The translations under genes were made by a program, and so were the position numbers. A DNA stretch of 44,266 nucleotides, from positions 1 to 44,266 of the forward strand of contig CADDYV010000028.1 of assembly GCA_902810695.1 (NCBI GenBank). Direction: 5' to 3'. Shown here in pieces: positions 2,723-23,504 of the stretch (position 1 is the stretch's first letter; every line of letters starts with the position of its first letter). This stretch comes from Actinomycetota bacterium (GTDB lineage Bacteria > Actinomycetota > Rubrobacteria > Rubrobacterales > Rubrobacteraceae). The notes below the pieces were generated by a model. That model ran no database searches. It was not told the DNA's origin and saw nothing but the letters and a program-made list of their open reading frames with translations.

Positions 2723-4288
<1,566 letters not shown>

Positions 4289-4326
4289 AAAGGGCGGTGA
4301 GACGCTGTTGAGGATGGAGAGTACAG

Positions 4327-4352
4327 GATCGGGGTCCTTCGAGACCCCGATC
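4327..4352 (+). other. Stable RNA hairpin between glpK and dhaK
   Basis: Perfect 10-bp stem (gatcggggtc / gaccccgatc) with loop cttcga, ending 17 bases before the dhaK ATG. No U-tract follows. It is more likely an mRNA processing or stability element than a terminator. Confidence 0.5.
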
Positions 4353-4369
4353 TACTCGAAAGGTAGAAG

Positions 4370-5371
4370 ATGAAGAAGCTAATCAATACCCCCGACCGCG
4401 TAGTCGAGGAGATGCTGCGGGGGATGGAGCTTGCGCATCGGGAGTTGATCCGGCTGATCCCCGAGCACAACGTCGTGGTCCGCGCCGACGCTCCGGTTCA
4501 GGGCAAGGTCGCCCTCGTCTCCGGCGGCGGCTCGGGCCACGAGCCGACCCACGGCGGCTACGTCGGACCAGGAATGCTCGACGCCGCGTGCGCGGGGGCC
4601 GTGTTCACCAGCCCCACCCCGGAGCAGATGCTGGAGGCAACGAAGGCGGTAAACGGCGGAGCCGGGGTATTCTACGTCGTCAAGAACTACACTGGAGACG
4701 TGCTGAACTTCGAGATGGCCGGGGAGCTTGCCGAAGCAGAGGGCATCGAAACCGATTACGTCGTTACAAACGACGATGTGGCGGTCGAGGACTCGACCTT
4801 CACCAGCGGCAGGCGCGGGGTGGCGGGCACGGTGTTCGTGCACAAGATCTGCGGCGCGGCAGCCGACGACGGGAAGGACCTGGCGGGAATCAAAGAGCTG
4901 GCCCAGAGGGTGAACGCCAACGCGCGCACGATGGGGATGGCCCTGACCAGTTGCACGCCGCCGGAAGCTGGAGAGCCTATCTTCAAGATCGGGGACGACG
5001 AGATGGAGCTTGGGATCGGCATCCACGGCGAACCCGGCGCCGAGCGCAAGAAGATAGAGCCTGCCGACAAGATCGTGGACGAGATGCTCGCGAAGATCCT
5101 CGGCGACTCGGTGGACTACTCGGGCTCCGAGGTGGCCGTCATCGTAAACGGCATGGGCGGCACGCCCCTGATGGAGCTCTACGTCGCCTACGCCCACGTC
5201 GCCGACGTGCTAAAGCGCGAGGGCGTGGAGGTCTGGCGGAGGCCCTATGTGGGCAACTACATGACCTCGCTGGAGATGGCGGGATTCTCCATAACGCTCT
5301 TGAAGCTCGACGACGAGATGAAAAATTACCTCTCTGCTCCATGCACGGTGGCTGCAGGAAGACCATTCTAG
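4370..5371 (+). CDS. dhaK: Dihydroxyacetone kinase subunit DhaK
   Basis: Substrate-binding subunit of the PTS-dependent dihydroxyacetone kinase. It holds dihydroxyacetone as a hemiaminal on a histidine while DhaL-ADP transfers phosphate. At 333 residues it has the usual DhaK length. Visible family motifs are GGGSGHEPTHGGYVG (with the His corresponding to E. coli His56), FTSPTPEQM, VKNYTGDVLNFEMA, GRRGVAGTVFVHK, and GIGIHGEPGAE, which carries the covalent substrate His (E. coli His218). The ATG is preceded by GAAAGG. glpF starts 15 bases after the stop. Unlike the usual dhaKLM order, dhaK is separated from dhaL here by the aquaglyceroporin gene. No glycerol dehydrogenase is present in the window to make dihydroxyacetone, so the substrate is imported or made elsewhere. 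Confidence 0.95.
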   Translation: MKKLINTPDRVVEEMLRGMELAHRELIRLIPEHNVVVRADAPVQGKVALVSGGGSGHEPTHGGYVGPGMLDAACAGAVFTSPTPEQMLEATKAVNGGAGVFYVVKNYTGDVLNFEMAGELAEAEGIETDYVVTNDDVAVEDSTFTSGRRGVAGTVFVHKICGAAADDGKDLAGIKELAQRVNANARTMGMALTSCTPPEAGEPIFKIGDDEMELGIGIHGEPGAERKKIEPADKIVDEMLAKILGDSVDYSGSEVAVIVNGMGGTPLMELYVAYAHVADVLKREGVEVWRRPYVGNYMTSLEMAGFSITLLKLDDEMKNYLSAPCTVAAGRPF

Positions 5372-18449: not shown

Positions 18450-18716
18450 CTAGCGGTGGCTGGGATCCAGCTCGCCCGATCCAAAAGCCTTTTCCATCTT
18501 CTCGCGGACCGATTGTACGAGCCTGGGGTTGCGGCAGATCTCCTCTATCTCACCCGGAGAAGCGTTACGGCGCACGTAATCCTCTTTGAGAACGTCTTCC
18601 AGGTACGCCCCTTCTCCGAGACGGTAGGCGATGTATTGCAGGACCTTCTCCTCTCGGGTGGTGGGCTGGGAGGTGTCAAAGAGCCGGGCCCAGAAAGATT
18701 CTTTCTCCTTTGCCAC
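18450..18716 (-). CDS. Small protein of unknown function downstream of asd
   Basis: 88 charged, probably helical residues (EEKVLQYIAYRLGEGAYLEDVL) with no membrane segment. It starts at GTG with GGAGA 8 bases upstream, 44 bases after asd. It is likely the tail of the metX-lysC-hom-asd transcript. The family is not recognised. Confidence 0.7.
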   Translation of the reverse strand: MAKEKESFWARLFDTSQPTTREEKVLQYIAYRLGEGAYLEDVLKEDYVRRNASPGEIEEICRNPRLVQSVREKMEKAFGSGELDPSHR

Positions 18717-18760
18717 TTCCGGTCTCCTCTCCTCGAAATAGTTTGTAACTTTATAGCATA

Positions 18761-19726
18761 TTATACTCTGGCTTTTACGAGAGCCCCGGCGATCTGGACG
18801 GCGTTGGTGGCCGCGCCTTTCAAGAGGTTATCGGAGACGCACCAGTACTCCAGCGTACGCCCACCGGCGCGCACGCGCCCTACGTACACGCCAGGGTCCC
18901 CGGCGGCTTCGAGCGCCGTCGGAAAGTCCGAGGCATCGCCGGAGAAGCTCACGCCCTGCGCCCCTCCGAGAACATCGAGCGCCTCTTCGAGGGACACATC
19001 CTCCTCAGTCTCGACGTAGACGCTCTCGGAGTGACCCGTGTGCACGGGGACGCGCACGGCGGTGGCGAAGATTTCGAGGTCCGGCAGGTCCAGAATCTTG
19101 CGCGACTCCTCGCGCATCTTGCGCTCCTCGGTGGTGTATCCGTCCTCGCCGACGCTCCCGATGAGCGGTATGACGTTGCCGGAGATGGGTTTGGGGAAGG
19201 CGTCTGTACGTCCGTTCTCCAGGGCCTCCACGCCGCTGCGCCCCGCCCCGGAGACCGCCTGGTAGGTAGAGACGACGACCTTCTTGAGGCCGAACTCGCG
19301 GGCGAGGGGGGCGAGCGTTACCACGAGCTGGGTCGTCGAGCAGTTGGGATTGGCGATGAGGCCCCTGTGGTCTTTCAGGGCGTGGGGGTTGACCTCCGGG
19401 ACGACGAGCGGAACCTCCGGGTCGAGCCGGAAGTCACTGCCGTTGTCTATGACGATGGCTCCCCGTTCTATGGCTTCGCGCGCAAGCTGTCTAGAGGCGC
19501 CTTTCTCGCCCTCGGTCCCGGCGAAGAGCGCGATGTCCACGCCCTCGAAGGCTTCTGGCGTTGCCGCCTCGATGTCGAAGCTCTCGCCCGCCAGGGTCGC
19601 CGTGCGGGTGCTGCGGGCGAGGACGCGCAGCTCCTTCAGGGGAAAGTTCTGGCGACGCAGCTCGGAGATGAGCTTCTCACCGACCAGCCCCGCCCCCACG
19701 ACGGCAACCGTGTAACCTCCGGGCAT
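18761..19726 (-). CDS. asd: Aspartate-semialdehyde dehydrogenase
   Basis: NADPH-dependent reduction of aspartyl phosphate to aspartate semialdehyde, the branch-point precursor of lysine/DAP and of homoserine. It has 321 residues. The Rossmann start is YTVAVVGAGLVGEKL, the active-site cysteine is in IANPNCSTTQLV, and the catalytic His region is AVRVPVHTGHSESV. The ATG has AGGAGAT upstream. The start is 5 bases from the hom stop, so the two are in one operon with lysC and metX. Confidence 0.96.
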   Translation of the reverse strand: MPGGYTVAVVGAGLVGEKLISELRRQNFPLKELRVLARSTRTATLAGESFDIEAATPEAFEGVDIALFAGTEGEKGASRQLAREAIERGAIVIDNGSDFRLDPEVPLVVPEVNPHALKDHRGLIANPNCSTTQLVVTLAPLAREFGLKKVVVSTYQAVSGAGRSGVEALENGRTDAFPKPISGNVIPLIGSVGEDGYTTEERKMREESRKILDLPDLEIFATAVRVPVHTGHSESVYVETEEDVSLEEALDVLGGAQGVSFSGDASDFPTALEAAGDPGVYVGRVRAGGRTLEYWCVSDNLLKGAATNAVQIAGALVKARV

Positions 19727-19731
19727 ATCTC

Positions 19732-20811
19732 CTATTCCTCCTCATCGCGGGTCACTCTGCGGGCAATGTCGAGCAGGTCGAAGACGACGCCGCTCGCGGT
19801 GCGCTCCGGTCCGGCCCCGGGACCGGATATAGTGAGGGTAACATCCGAGTAGCGCCGGGTGTGGAAATCGAAGACGTTTTCGGGGCCGCTGATCGGGCCG
19901 AACGGGCTCTCTACCGGCGTATCTGCGAGCCCGACCGTTACCGGACCTTCCTTCGGGATGCGGGCCAGATACCGCAGCATGTGCCCGGCCTCGACGGAGA
20001 CTAGACGGTCGTGAAACGCCTCGTCCGCCTCCGGCAACCTCTCCATAAACTCTTCCTGCGAGACGTTTTCCAGACCGTCGGGGACGAGGGACTGGTAGGG
20101 GATCTCTCCTGGTTCGATCTCGCGCCCCATCGTGCGGGCGAGGATTATGGCTTTACGCGCCACATCCAGCCCGGAGAGGTCGTCGCGGGGATCAGGCTCG
20201 GCGTAGTGAAGCTCGACCGCCATCCTGACCGCTTCAGAGAAGGAGTGGCCGCCCTCGACCGCGCTCATAATGAAGCCTAGAGTTCCGCTCGGGCTCGCCT
20301 GTATCTCGAAGATCTCATCGCCGCTTGCGATCAGGGAGTTGATGGTCGATATCACCGGCATCCCGGCACCCACTGTTGCCTCGTGCCAGAGGCGGTCGGG
20401 CAACAGCTTCATGAGCTTCTCGTACTGGTCGGTGGTCCCGGAGAGAGGCCCCTTGTTGGAGAGCACCAGGTACGAACCGTTCTGTATCCCGAGCAGGTCG
20501 AGGTCGTAGGTCCCGCCGTGCACCGCGAGGTCCACGACCACCCTGATGCTGCCGGGCTCGGGGTCGGAGACGAGCACATCCTCCAGCGGCTCTGTCCCGA
20601 GATCCGCGAGTTTGCCGCCCTTCTCCTTGAACCGGATGGCCTGCGGCAGCAGGTCTTCACCTACAAGCGCCCCCGAGGTGTCGGAGACCGCCCGGTAGCT
20701 CACCTCCAGGTCCAGTTCCTCCAGCCAGCGTTTGCGCTCCTCCAGGATGATCTGGGCCACCGCCCGCCCGACGTTGCCCAGCCCGAGCTGGACTATCTCC
20801 ATCCGCTTCAT
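19732..20811 (-). CDS. hom: Homoserine dehydrogenase (short form, no ACT domain)
   Basis: Reduces aspartate semialdehyde to homoserine. It has 359 residues. The N-terminal nucleotide fold is MEIVQLGLGNVGRAVAQ. The catalytic domain shows LSNKGPLSG, EATVGAGMPVISTINSL and QASPSGTLGFIMSAVEGG, then YAEPDPRDDLSGLDVARK. It ends after the NAD-closing helix (TASGVVFDLLDIARRV) with no C-terminal ACT domain, so threonine feedback of the usual kind is not expected. The ATG at 20811 overlaps the lysC stop by 4 bases (ATGA). The upstream frame extension belongs to lysC. Co-transcription with lysC and asd is clear. Confidence 0.95.
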   Translation of the reverse strand: MKRMEIVQLGLGNVGRAVAQIILEERKRWLEELDLEVSYRAVSDTSGALVGEDLLPQAIRFKEKGGKLADLGTEPLEDVLVSDPEPGSIRVVVDLAVHGGTYDLDLLGIQNGSYLVLSNKGPLSGTTDQYEKLMKLLPDRLWHEATVGAGMPVISTINSLIASGDEIFEIQASPSGTLGFIMSAVEGGHSFSEAVRMAVELHYAEPDPRDDLSGLDVARKAIILARTMGREIEPGEIPYQSLVPDGLENVSQEEFMERLPEADEAFHDRLVSVEAGHMLRYLARIPKEGPVTVGLADTPVESPFGPISGPENVFDFHTRRYSDVTLTISGPGAGPERTASGVVFDLLDIARRVTRDEEE

Positions 20812-22043
20812 ACAGCTTGCCCCCCGACCGATACGGGAGCGCGAACCAGGCCCTCGTGCAGCGCGCGCAGCGCCTCCTCTTCCCGCTCTGCGGTCACGAA
20901 GAAGACGAGTTCTGTGGCAGTGATCCCGGCGTGAAGTGGGGATATTCCCACCCTGCGCAAACACCGCATCCCGCGCGCGATATCCGCGTTCTCCGGCGCC
21001 CCGATGCAAACCACTGCGGCCGTGCGCCGCCTGTAGCCGCTGGTGCAGGGAAGCTCGACCGCGAGGCCGCGGTGCACCCCCACGCAGCGTATCCCCGATC
21101 CGGTGTAGAGATCCGAGATGCGCGTTCCCGGGCACTCCGGGTTGAAGGTGTTTCTTACCGCAACCTCGATACCCGCTTCCGCGACGGGCTCCATCGTCCG
21201 GGGGTGCAGGACCTTCGCTCCTAGGTTCGAGAAAGCGGCGGCTTCGCGGTAGGAGAGGTGTGAAACGAGCCTTGTGGCCGGGACCACGCGCGGGTCGGCG
21301 GAGAGCACGCCGTCAACGTCGGACATGATCCAGACCTCCCCGGCTTCCAGGGCGCGTCCCAGAACCGTTGCCGAGAGGTCCGAGCCACCCCGCCCCAGCG
21401 TGGTCGGAAGACCTTCCGGCGAACGTCCGACGTAGCCCGGCACGACCGCGACGACGCCCTCTTCGAGAAGCGGCGCGACGTAACGCTTGCATCGCTCCTT
21501 CGTCGCCTCCGCGTCTACTCCCGCTTCATCGAAGCACGAGTCGGTGGCTATCGGGTCCCGGGTGACCGCAGCGGGAGCCCCGAGGCTTCCTATGGCTCCG
21601 GCCAGGATCTCCGCCGAGAGCCGCTCTCCGAAGGCCGCTACTCTTGCCCGCCGCTCCGCCGGAACTTCGGCGGGCTCGTTGAGTGATTCGGCGAGCTCCT
21701 TGAGCAGCCCGAGCAGGCGTTCCTCTACGCCAGGGAGGAGATCCGGGTCGTGAGCGGCGTGGCGGGCGGCGGCGAGATGCCTCTCGGCGAGGGCCCGGTA
21801 GAGCTCGGCGATAGACCCCTCGTGGGTGGCGCCCGTCGAAGTTCGGGTGCTCATGCCGGCGGTGGTGTCGGCGTAACCGAGCAGGGTGTCGGTGGTGCCG
21901 CTCATCGCCGAGACGACGACGGCCACCGGACGATCCTGGGCAGCCCCGGCGACTATTCTGGCGGCTCTAATGAACTCCTCACCGCCGCCGACCGAGGTGC
22001 CCCCGAACTTGATTACGAGGGGTCTCTCGCTCAATCTACTCAC
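20808..22043 (-). CDS. lysC: Aspartate kinase with a reduced ACT region
   Basis: Phosphorylates aspartate, the first step of the lysine/methionine/threonine pathway. It has 411 residues. The kinase domain shows VIKFGGTSVGG, AFGERLSAEIL, GYVGRSPEGLPTTLGRGGSD, IMSDVDGVLSADPR and SNLGAKVLHPRTMEP. It includes the long helical insertion typical of the E. coli ThrA/LysC class (residues about 65-125). Only about 100 residues follow, with a single recognisable ACT-like stretch (TAAVVCIGAPENADIA... to ATELVFFV). Aspartokinases normally have two interleaved ACT domains, so one appears lost. Starts at GTG 22043; a TTG three codons later has better ribosome-site spacing. Confidence 0.93.
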   Translation of the reverse strand: MSRLSERPLVIKFGGTSVGGGEEFIRAARIVAGAAQDRPVAVVVSAMSGTTDTLLGYADTTAGMSTRTSTGATHEGSIAELYRALAERHLAAARHAAHDPDLLPGVEERLLGLLKELAESLNEPAEVPAERRARVAAFGERLSAEILAGAIGSLGAPAAVTRDPIATDSCFDEAGVDAEATKERCKRYVAPLLEEGVVAVVPGYVGRSPEGLPTTLGRGGSDLSATVLGRALEAGEVWIMSDVDGVLSADPRVVPATRLVSHLSYREAAAFSNLGAKVLHPRTMEPVAEAGIEVAVRNTFNPECPGTRISDLYTGSGIRCVGVHRGLAVELPCTSGYRRRTAAVVCIGAPENADIARGMRCLRRVGISPLHAGITATELVFFVTAEREEEALRALHEGLVRAPVSVGGQAV

Positions 22044-22091
22044 GCTCCGTTCAGTTTTCGTTTGTTTTTCTCCATCACTGCTTCTCCTGCT

Positions 22092-23222
22092 CTAGTCCAG
22101 GAAGGGTTTGAGGGCTCTCTGTAGTTCTGCCCAGTCTTTGAGGAACGAGTCGTGCCCGTTCAGGGAATCTATCTCCGTATAGTGCGCTTCTGCTCCGGCG
22201 CTGCGTGCCTTCTCCGCAGTCTCGCGAACTTCGGATGCCGGGAACAGCCAGTCGCTGGAGATGCCGACGAAGAGCATCTCGGACTCTATCCTGGAGTACG
22301 CTTCCTCCTCGGACTCGTACCCCGCGGCCACGTCGTAGAGATCCATCGCACGGGAGAGGTAGAGGTAGGAGTTGGCGTCGAAGCGGCCCACGAGATCCCG
22401 GCCCTGATAGTGCAGATAGCTCTCGATGTCGAACCTGCCGCCGAACTCCGGGCAGAGGGCGGGACGGGTGGCGGGCCTGCGCCCGAAGCGCTCCCACTGC
22501 CCCTGGGCGCTCTGGTAGGTCATCATCCCGGCCATCCGGGCGATGGCGAGACCTTCATCGGGGCTTCTGCCGGTCCCGTAGTAATCGCCCCCCTGCCAGT
22601 TCGGGTCGGCCATGATCGCACGCCGCCCGATCTCGCTCATCCCTAACCCCTGCGGTCCCAGGGCCCCGGTCGCCGCGATCGGCGCCACCTTCTCCGCAAA
22701 GCCCGGAAACTCCACTGCCCATTCGAGCGCCTGCTGGCCGCCGATAGAGCCGCCGATGACCAGCGCCAGCCTGCTTACGCCCAAAGTCTCCAGGAGCCGT
22801 CTCTGGGCGCGGACCATGTCCCGGATCGTGACGAGCGGGAACCGCATCCCGTACGGACGCTCCGAGTCCGGGTCGAGCGAAGCCGGTCCCGTGCTGCCCG
22901 AGCAGCCGCCCAGGACGTTCGAGCAGATCACGAAGTATCTATCGGTATCTATGGGGCGCCCCGGCCCGACCATGGGATCCCACCAGCCGCCCCGCTTGTA
23001 CTCCTCAGATGGTTTCCCGGCGGCATGAGAGTCACCGGTCAGGGCGTGGACAATGAGCACAGCGTTATCCCCCGCCGAATTCAACTCGCCCCACGTCTCG
23101 CAGGCGAGTTCGATCTCCGGGATGTAGCCGCCGAGCTCTGGCTCGAAGGGTCCTACGCAGTAGAAAGCTTTACCCGGTCGGGCCGGAGCTTGTCTAGCCC
23201 CGGCCCCCAGGTCTTGTGCCAT
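22092..23222 (-). CDS. metX: Homoserine O-acyltransferase
   Basis: Activates homoserine with an acyl group for methionine synthesis. Alpha/beta hydrolase of 376 residues, the MetX length. Landmarks are ACETWGELN, VLIVHALTGDSHAAG, the nucleophile elbow GGSIGGQQALEWA, the late Asp region SSDWLFP and the catalytic His in NGHDSF. Acetyl versus succinyl specificity cannot be read with confidence. The ATG is 17 bases from the best purine run (GGAAGGAGG), unusually far; no better in-frame start lies upstream. It is first in the metX-lysC-hom-asd operon, behind a SAM-I riboswitch. No sulfhydrylase gene is next to it. Confidence 0.94.
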   Translation of the reverse strand: MAQDLGAGARQAPARPGKAFYCVGPFEPELGGYIPEIELACETWGELNSAGDNAVLIVHALTGDSHAAGKPSEEYKRGGWWDPMVGPGRPIDTDRYFVICSNVLGGCSGSTGPASLDPDSERPYGMRFPLVTIRDMVRAQRRLLETLGVSRLALVIGGSIGGQQALEWAVEFPGFAEKVAPIAATGALGPQGLGMSEIGRRAIMADPNWQGGDYYGTGRSPDEGLAIARMAGMMTYQSAQGQWERFGRRPATRPALCPEFGGRFDIESYLHYQGRDLVGRFDANSYLYLSRAMDLYDVAAGYESEEEAYSRIESEMLFVGISSDWLFPASEVRETAEKARSAGAEAHYTEIDSLNGHDSFLKDWAELQRALKPFLD

Positions 23223-23334
23223 ACTTGGGAGTAATACAGCCTCCTTCCGTTGATCGGGTTTACACGTTCCTGTAGCGCCAAACCGGCGCCGCTATTACGC
23301 GCAACCCGCTCGCAGAAGAGGCCGCAAGGCTCTT

Positions 23335-23457
23335 CCCACATCTTCCAGAATTGGCTTTAAAGCCAACCCTGCTGGATTTGGCACCTCACGGAGTAGGGAT
23401 CTCCGCCGGTTGCCGCGGTTTCGCAGGGCCAGTTCCCTCCGCCGCTCTCGATGCGGG
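23335..23457 (-). ncRNA. SAM-I (S-box) riboswitch upstream of metX
   Basis: On the minus strand, P1 forms between cccgcatc (23457-23450) and gatgtggg (23342-23335). Conserved S-box core segments follow in order: GAGAGCGGCGGAGGGA, CTGGCCC, GAAACCGCGGCAACC, then GGTGCCAAATCC and a closing GAAGATG. It lies 113 bases before metX. No U-tract follows the hairpin at about 23313-23333, so control may be translational. Confidence 0.92.
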
Positions 23458-23474
23458 TCCGCGTTTAGAGGTGG

Positions 23475-23504
23475 ATGCTAAAACATCTGGCTACCCTTCG
23501 TCAA
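23475..23504 (-). promoter_or_regulatory. Promoter of the SAM-riboswitch/metX transcript
   Basis: Minus-strand TTGACG (23504-23499), 18-base spacer, TAGCAT (23480-23475). The predicted start is about 10 bases before riboswitch P1, an ideal arrangement. Confidence 0.6.

Follow-up and report, generated by a model that had tools for sequence, protein, structure and literature searches.

We propose that the metX-(metY)-lysC-hom-asd operon, conserved in this bacterial family, is headed by a canonical SAM-I aptamer coupled to an OFF platform that acts on translation, that the genes distal to metX are affected indirectly, and that aspartokinase function is split between the operon-encoded enzyme AK1 and a second enzyme, AK2; taken as a whole, we regard this scheme as likely. 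It places the sole asd gene, needed for cell-wall diaminopimelate (DAP), in a SAM-repressible operon. This is a testable conflict, and the question of how wall synthesis survives plentiful SAM becomes one about the reach of a first-cistron translational riboswitch over distal genes. In addition, RNA control may have superseded allostery in the case of the ACT-truncated AK1.

SAM-I aptamer and promoter upstream of metX

The 44-kb window (the whole stretch of DNA analyzed) contains a single Rfam match, to RF00162 (SAM-I, S-box), located at 23457-23335 on the minus strand. The match covers the full length of the model (positions 1-108 of 108) and scores 75.3 bits against a gathering threshold of 44.4 (E 5.2e-16). 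This covariance-model search with the SAM model, which the initial annotation had put forward as a check, confirms its description of a full S-box aptamer with an 8-bp P1, the latter being formed by CCCGCAUC (23457-23450) and GAUGUGGG (23342-23335). The aptamer is separated from the metX AUG by 112 nt, which places it inside the 5' leader of a methionine gene, and its sequence suggests that it binds SAM. An ATG inside P1 (23341) was considered as the start of a leader peptide and rejected, as the frame is not conserved among the relatives' leaders.

The putative promoter TTGACG-18-TAGCAT (23504-23475, minus strand) is the sole promoter-like site detected by a consensus scan of the 17.8-23.65 kb region; shuffled sequences give 0.8 sites, and the site by itself is weak evidence. 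Both of its elements, TTGAC[GC] and a TTTAGCAT-like -10 box, recur across the 16 leaders compared. Since the aptamer begins 17 nt after the -10 box, it would lie approximately 10 nt past the expected transcription start, just where the initial annotation had placed it relative to this promoter.

Gene content and conservation of the operon

The aptamer is followed on the minus strand by metX, encoding homoserine O-acetyltransferase (23222-22092; NF001209, 455 bits), lysC, encoding AK1, an aspartokinase with one ACT-like domain (22043-20808; TIGR00657, 257 bits, and structural model), hom, encoding homoserine dehydrogenase (20811-19732; PF00742), and asd, encoding aspartate-semialdehyde dehydrogenase (19726-18761; TIGR01296). 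The lysC start codon is either GTG at 22043 or TTG at 22034, and asd has a strong Shine-Dalgarno (SD) sequence of its own, GAGGAGGAAUAGGAGAU-AUG. Two further genes on the same strand are orf88 (18716-18450), encoding a conserved 88-aa protein, and a conserved neighbor encoding an fmdB-family zinc-ribbon protein (18373-18080; TIGR02605), which is probably part of the same transcript as orf88 and the upstream genes. Intergenic distances are 48 nt for metX-lysC, -4 nt for lysC-hom (an ATGA overlap), 5 nt for hom-asd, 44 nt for asd-orf88, and 76 nt for orf88-fmdB. The tight packing from metX to asd, with two junctions of 4-5 bases, had thus been read correctly, and lysC, hom, and asd are predicted to share one transcript with metX. 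The 88-residue protein, earlier regarded as an orphan that may belong to the transcript, does lie in the riboswitch-headed gene set but is not an orphan: it is conserved beside asd in relatives, and has no credible match to a Pfam family and none to an NCBIfam family.

We searched 36 genomes of the same family, 31 of which encode the operon's lysC (AK1). In 29 of these 31 genomes the riboswitch is found upstream of this gene on the same contig; in the two exceptions (G018 and G035) it is located on a contig without an AK1 lysC match. The order metX-(metY)-lysC-hom-asd is kept in all 16 long loci that were extracted. In most relatives metY, encoding an O-acetylhomoserine sulfhydrylase-like protein, lies between metX and lysC (e.g., L044 1704-3015); it is absent from the operon in the studied genome and in four others (G001, G008, G013, and G019). 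The studied genome contains only distant metY matches (≤37%), and therefore homocysteine may be made here by another route. Further variation was noted at individual loci. By eye, the asd-orf88 gap of 540-605 nt in five loci (L044, L046, L051, L057, and L069) holds a gene for a GNAT-like acetyltransferase of ~160-185 aa, which is absent from the window. In G023 (L067, reversed-locus positions 3025-5346) the lysC frame continues into hom, and asd has in-frame stops, reflecting frameshifts, assembly errors, or a fused kinase-dehydrogenase.

Predicted expression platform

A scan of the leader between the aptamer and metX revealed no G+C stem leading into a U run, and no terminator is visible in the relatives' leaders that were compared; the metX leader therefore does not fall among the SAM-I platforms based on an intrinsic terminator. 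Its features agree instead with the SD-sequestering OFF platforms described in general by Barrick and Breaker (PMC2258182): the SD is able to pair with an anti-SD strand, a mutually exclusive alternative exists, and the complementarity is conserved. The predicted folding energy of the 145 nt following P1 is -62.8 kcal/mol (z -3.4), and in this fold the anti-SD strand GCGGCCUCUUCU (23325-23314) pairs with GGAAGGAGGCUGU (23248-23236), thereby covering the metX SD region. Folding and pairing analyses of the minus-strand leader point to three more candidate elements, namely the 5' leader together with the P1 5' strand (23464-23453), which is complementary to the downstream GCGGGUUGCGC; an almost invariant candidate anti-P1, GCGGGUUGCGCG (23309-23298); and a candidate anti-anti-SD, GGAAGAG (23336-23330), which shares the last two P1 bases. 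These strands make up two mutually exclusive sets, P1 with anti-SD/SD (OFF) and anti-P1 with anti-anti-SD (ON). In the leaders of 27 genomes four elements are kept despite variable intervening sequence: the P1 3' strand with its purine tract, the anti-SD strand, GCGGGUUGCGCG, and the SD block.

When scored on the same sequences from which the structures were proposed, 95.4% of cells are paired in the OFF set and 92.2% in the ON set, and sliding lowers both values to 42-60%. Across 23 distinct leaders, pairing reaches 94% for the anti-SD/SD helix, 97.6% for anti-P1, and 85% for the anti-anti-SD helix, whose register varies among genomes. For all 10 leaders tested, at least 94% of shuffles gave a weaker leader/anti-P1 duplex. 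When anti-P1 is favored by a bonus, the SD is predicted to be more exposed than in the SAM-like state in 27 out of 27 leaders (mean 0.46 vs. 0.09); the noP1 control left exposure unchanged and is not counted as evidence, and the minimum free energy mostly favors the OFF form even without SAM. Changed pairs in the switch helices are not above shuffles because the helix columns hardly vary; we thus rejected covariation as a proof of these helices, which it neither proves nor disproves.

Based on these data, we propose the following mode of action, in which the direction of switching and the polarity are deduced from pairing. Upon SAM binding, P1 would form and leave the anti-SD strand free to capture the metX SD, so that MetX synthesis would be blocked. 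When SAM is absent, GCGGGUUGCGC would be taken up by the P1 5' strand and the leader, and the anti-SD strand by the P1 3' end, so that the SD would be released. In all family leaders measured, the GGAGG motif and the metX AUG lie exactly 17 nt apart, with a conserved AUUAC in between (window positions 23239-23223), a spacing that is unusually wide. An AUU start at 23235, considered as an explanation for this distance, was dropped as it is out of frame with metX.

Two aspartokinases with different regulatory context

The genome search for a second aspartokinase suggested in the initial annotation identified AK2 (LysC) on contig C53, with two ACT domains and directly followed by dapA and dapB, as named from their translations; no Rfam element, lysine riboswitch included, was found near it. 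Of the 36 family genomes, 33 encode AK2, with identities of 76-100%. Given this linkage to dapA-dapB and the lack of a nearby Rfam match, lysine/DAP flux is not solely dependent on the operon lysC.

The two enzymes differ in their ACT-domain content. AK2 matches ACT families twice, whereas AK1 has a match for the kinase domain but, like the proteins of the two relatives tested, yields no Pfam ACT match at E 0.1. In the AlphaFold model of AK1 (pLDDT 86.9) the kinase domain is followed by a single ACT-like unit. The nearest solved structures are aspartokinases, the closest being the threonine-sensitive enzyme of Methanocaldococcus jannaschii (3c1m), relative to which AK1 has a gap of ~70 residues in the tandem ACT region. 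By sequence and model, AK1 has thus lost one ACT domain. In known aspartokinases inhibitors bind at the ACT pair, and for this reason AK1 is probably insensitive to, or altered in, classical feedback inhibition. Because of the same loss, RNA control would probably replace allosteric control in the homoserine/methionine branch, with AK2 serving lysine/DAP. The stronger form of this idea is that SAM-sensing RNA has replaced protein allostery throughout the family, the ACT-truncated AK1 being controlled only by the four-strand translational switch, so that a SAM-governed AK1-hom-metX arm and a feedback-governed AK2-dapA-dapB arm share a single asd; we offer it tentatively, as a possibility that is somewhat doubtful at present.

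Reach of SAM control over lysC, hom, and asd

A single asd gene is present in each of the 32 family genomes that yielded one, and a single hom gene in the studied genome, whose contigs contain no detectable second copy of either gene. An asd-like match on contig C104 (33%) was rejected as a second asd, since the gene is ArgC-like and lies in an arginine cluster. DAP synthesis requires Asd. With asd and hom both single-copy, strict SAM shut-off would therefore starve diaminopimelate synthesis, and full shut-off of the operon is unlikely.

This bears on the earlier proposal that SAM limits lysC, hom, and asd together with metX. The riboswitch, promoter, gene order, and conserved gene set behind it all hold, but the platform looks translational and covers the metX SD only. 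It is for this reason that the distal genes would be affected only via coupling or Rho polarity. Leader termination could in principle shut metX through asd, making SAM a switch of the whole operon at transcription, and the single promoter-like site and tight junctions fit this view, as does the rho gene of the genome (621 bits), which would allow Rho-dependent termination in a ribosome-free leader. We nevertheless find such a switch unlikely: a U-run terminator is seen neither in this leader nor in those of the relatives compared, unlike the leader of the third aptamer of the genome (L011 4936-4958), and complete shut-off would block DAP synthesis, asd being the sole copy.

The opposite view, that SAM control is limited to metX and that lysC-hom-asd are effectively independent by virtue of their own ribosome-binding sites and internal promoters, draws on the strong SD of asd, on its probable essentiality as a single-copy gene, and on hom-asd gaps of 96-145 nt in two relatives. 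It appears quite improbable given the short metX-lysC, lysC-hom, and hom-asd junctions, an order conserved throughout the family, and the result of the consensus scan, which may miss internal promoters and detected no internal promoter-like site on this strand in the window. Most likely, then, the platform acts directly on metX translation and controls lysC-hom-asd at most indirectly. SAM would reach these genes through Rho polarity, mRNA decay, or translational coupling, and such indirect control would leave asd at a basal level.

Comparison with known systems

The aptamer shares its sequence, fold, and position ahead of a methionine gene with RF00162 SAM-I riboswitches; the apparently translational platform and the extension of the operon to aspartokinase, homoserine dehydrogenase, and Asd set it apart. 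Precedents for part of this arrangement exist. In Clostridioides difficile a SAM-I riboswitch is likewise located ahead of an aspartate-family gene, hom1 (PMC11477304, Table 1); however, hom1 is the only such gene there, with no metX, lysC, or asd listed under it. Our analysis also revealed two Chloroflexota loci (L131 and L154, Caldilineaceae/Caldilineales) in which a SAM-I riboswitch precedes metX, lysC, and hom, as in the studied operon. They differ by an intervening methyltransferase-like gene between metX and lysC and by an aspartokinase with a full ACT pair, and no asd was identified within the stretch examined. A literature search that left out many subscription papers returned no description of a SAM-I-metX-lysC-hom-asd operon, the novelty of which is uncertain.

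Other SAM-I aptamers in the genome

The genome (3.59 Mb, 98% complete) carries three SAM-I aptamers, including the one in the metX leader. The third (L011 4810-4918, corresponding to contig C21:35809-35917; 58.9 bits) has a clear intrinsic terminator behind it, at L011 4936-4958, but no recognizable methionine gene, and is possibly an orphan or decayed switch; a phage-type integrase is encoded ~1 kb upstream. The second aptamer, on contig C18, precedes a homocysteine methyltransferase/MTHFR-like gene and two separate MetE-like genes (L010 5654-9607), the latter possibly encoding folate-independent core methionine synthases (cf. PMC7857596). By eye, the MTHFR leaders contain anti-SD and SD motifs comparable to those of the metX leader.
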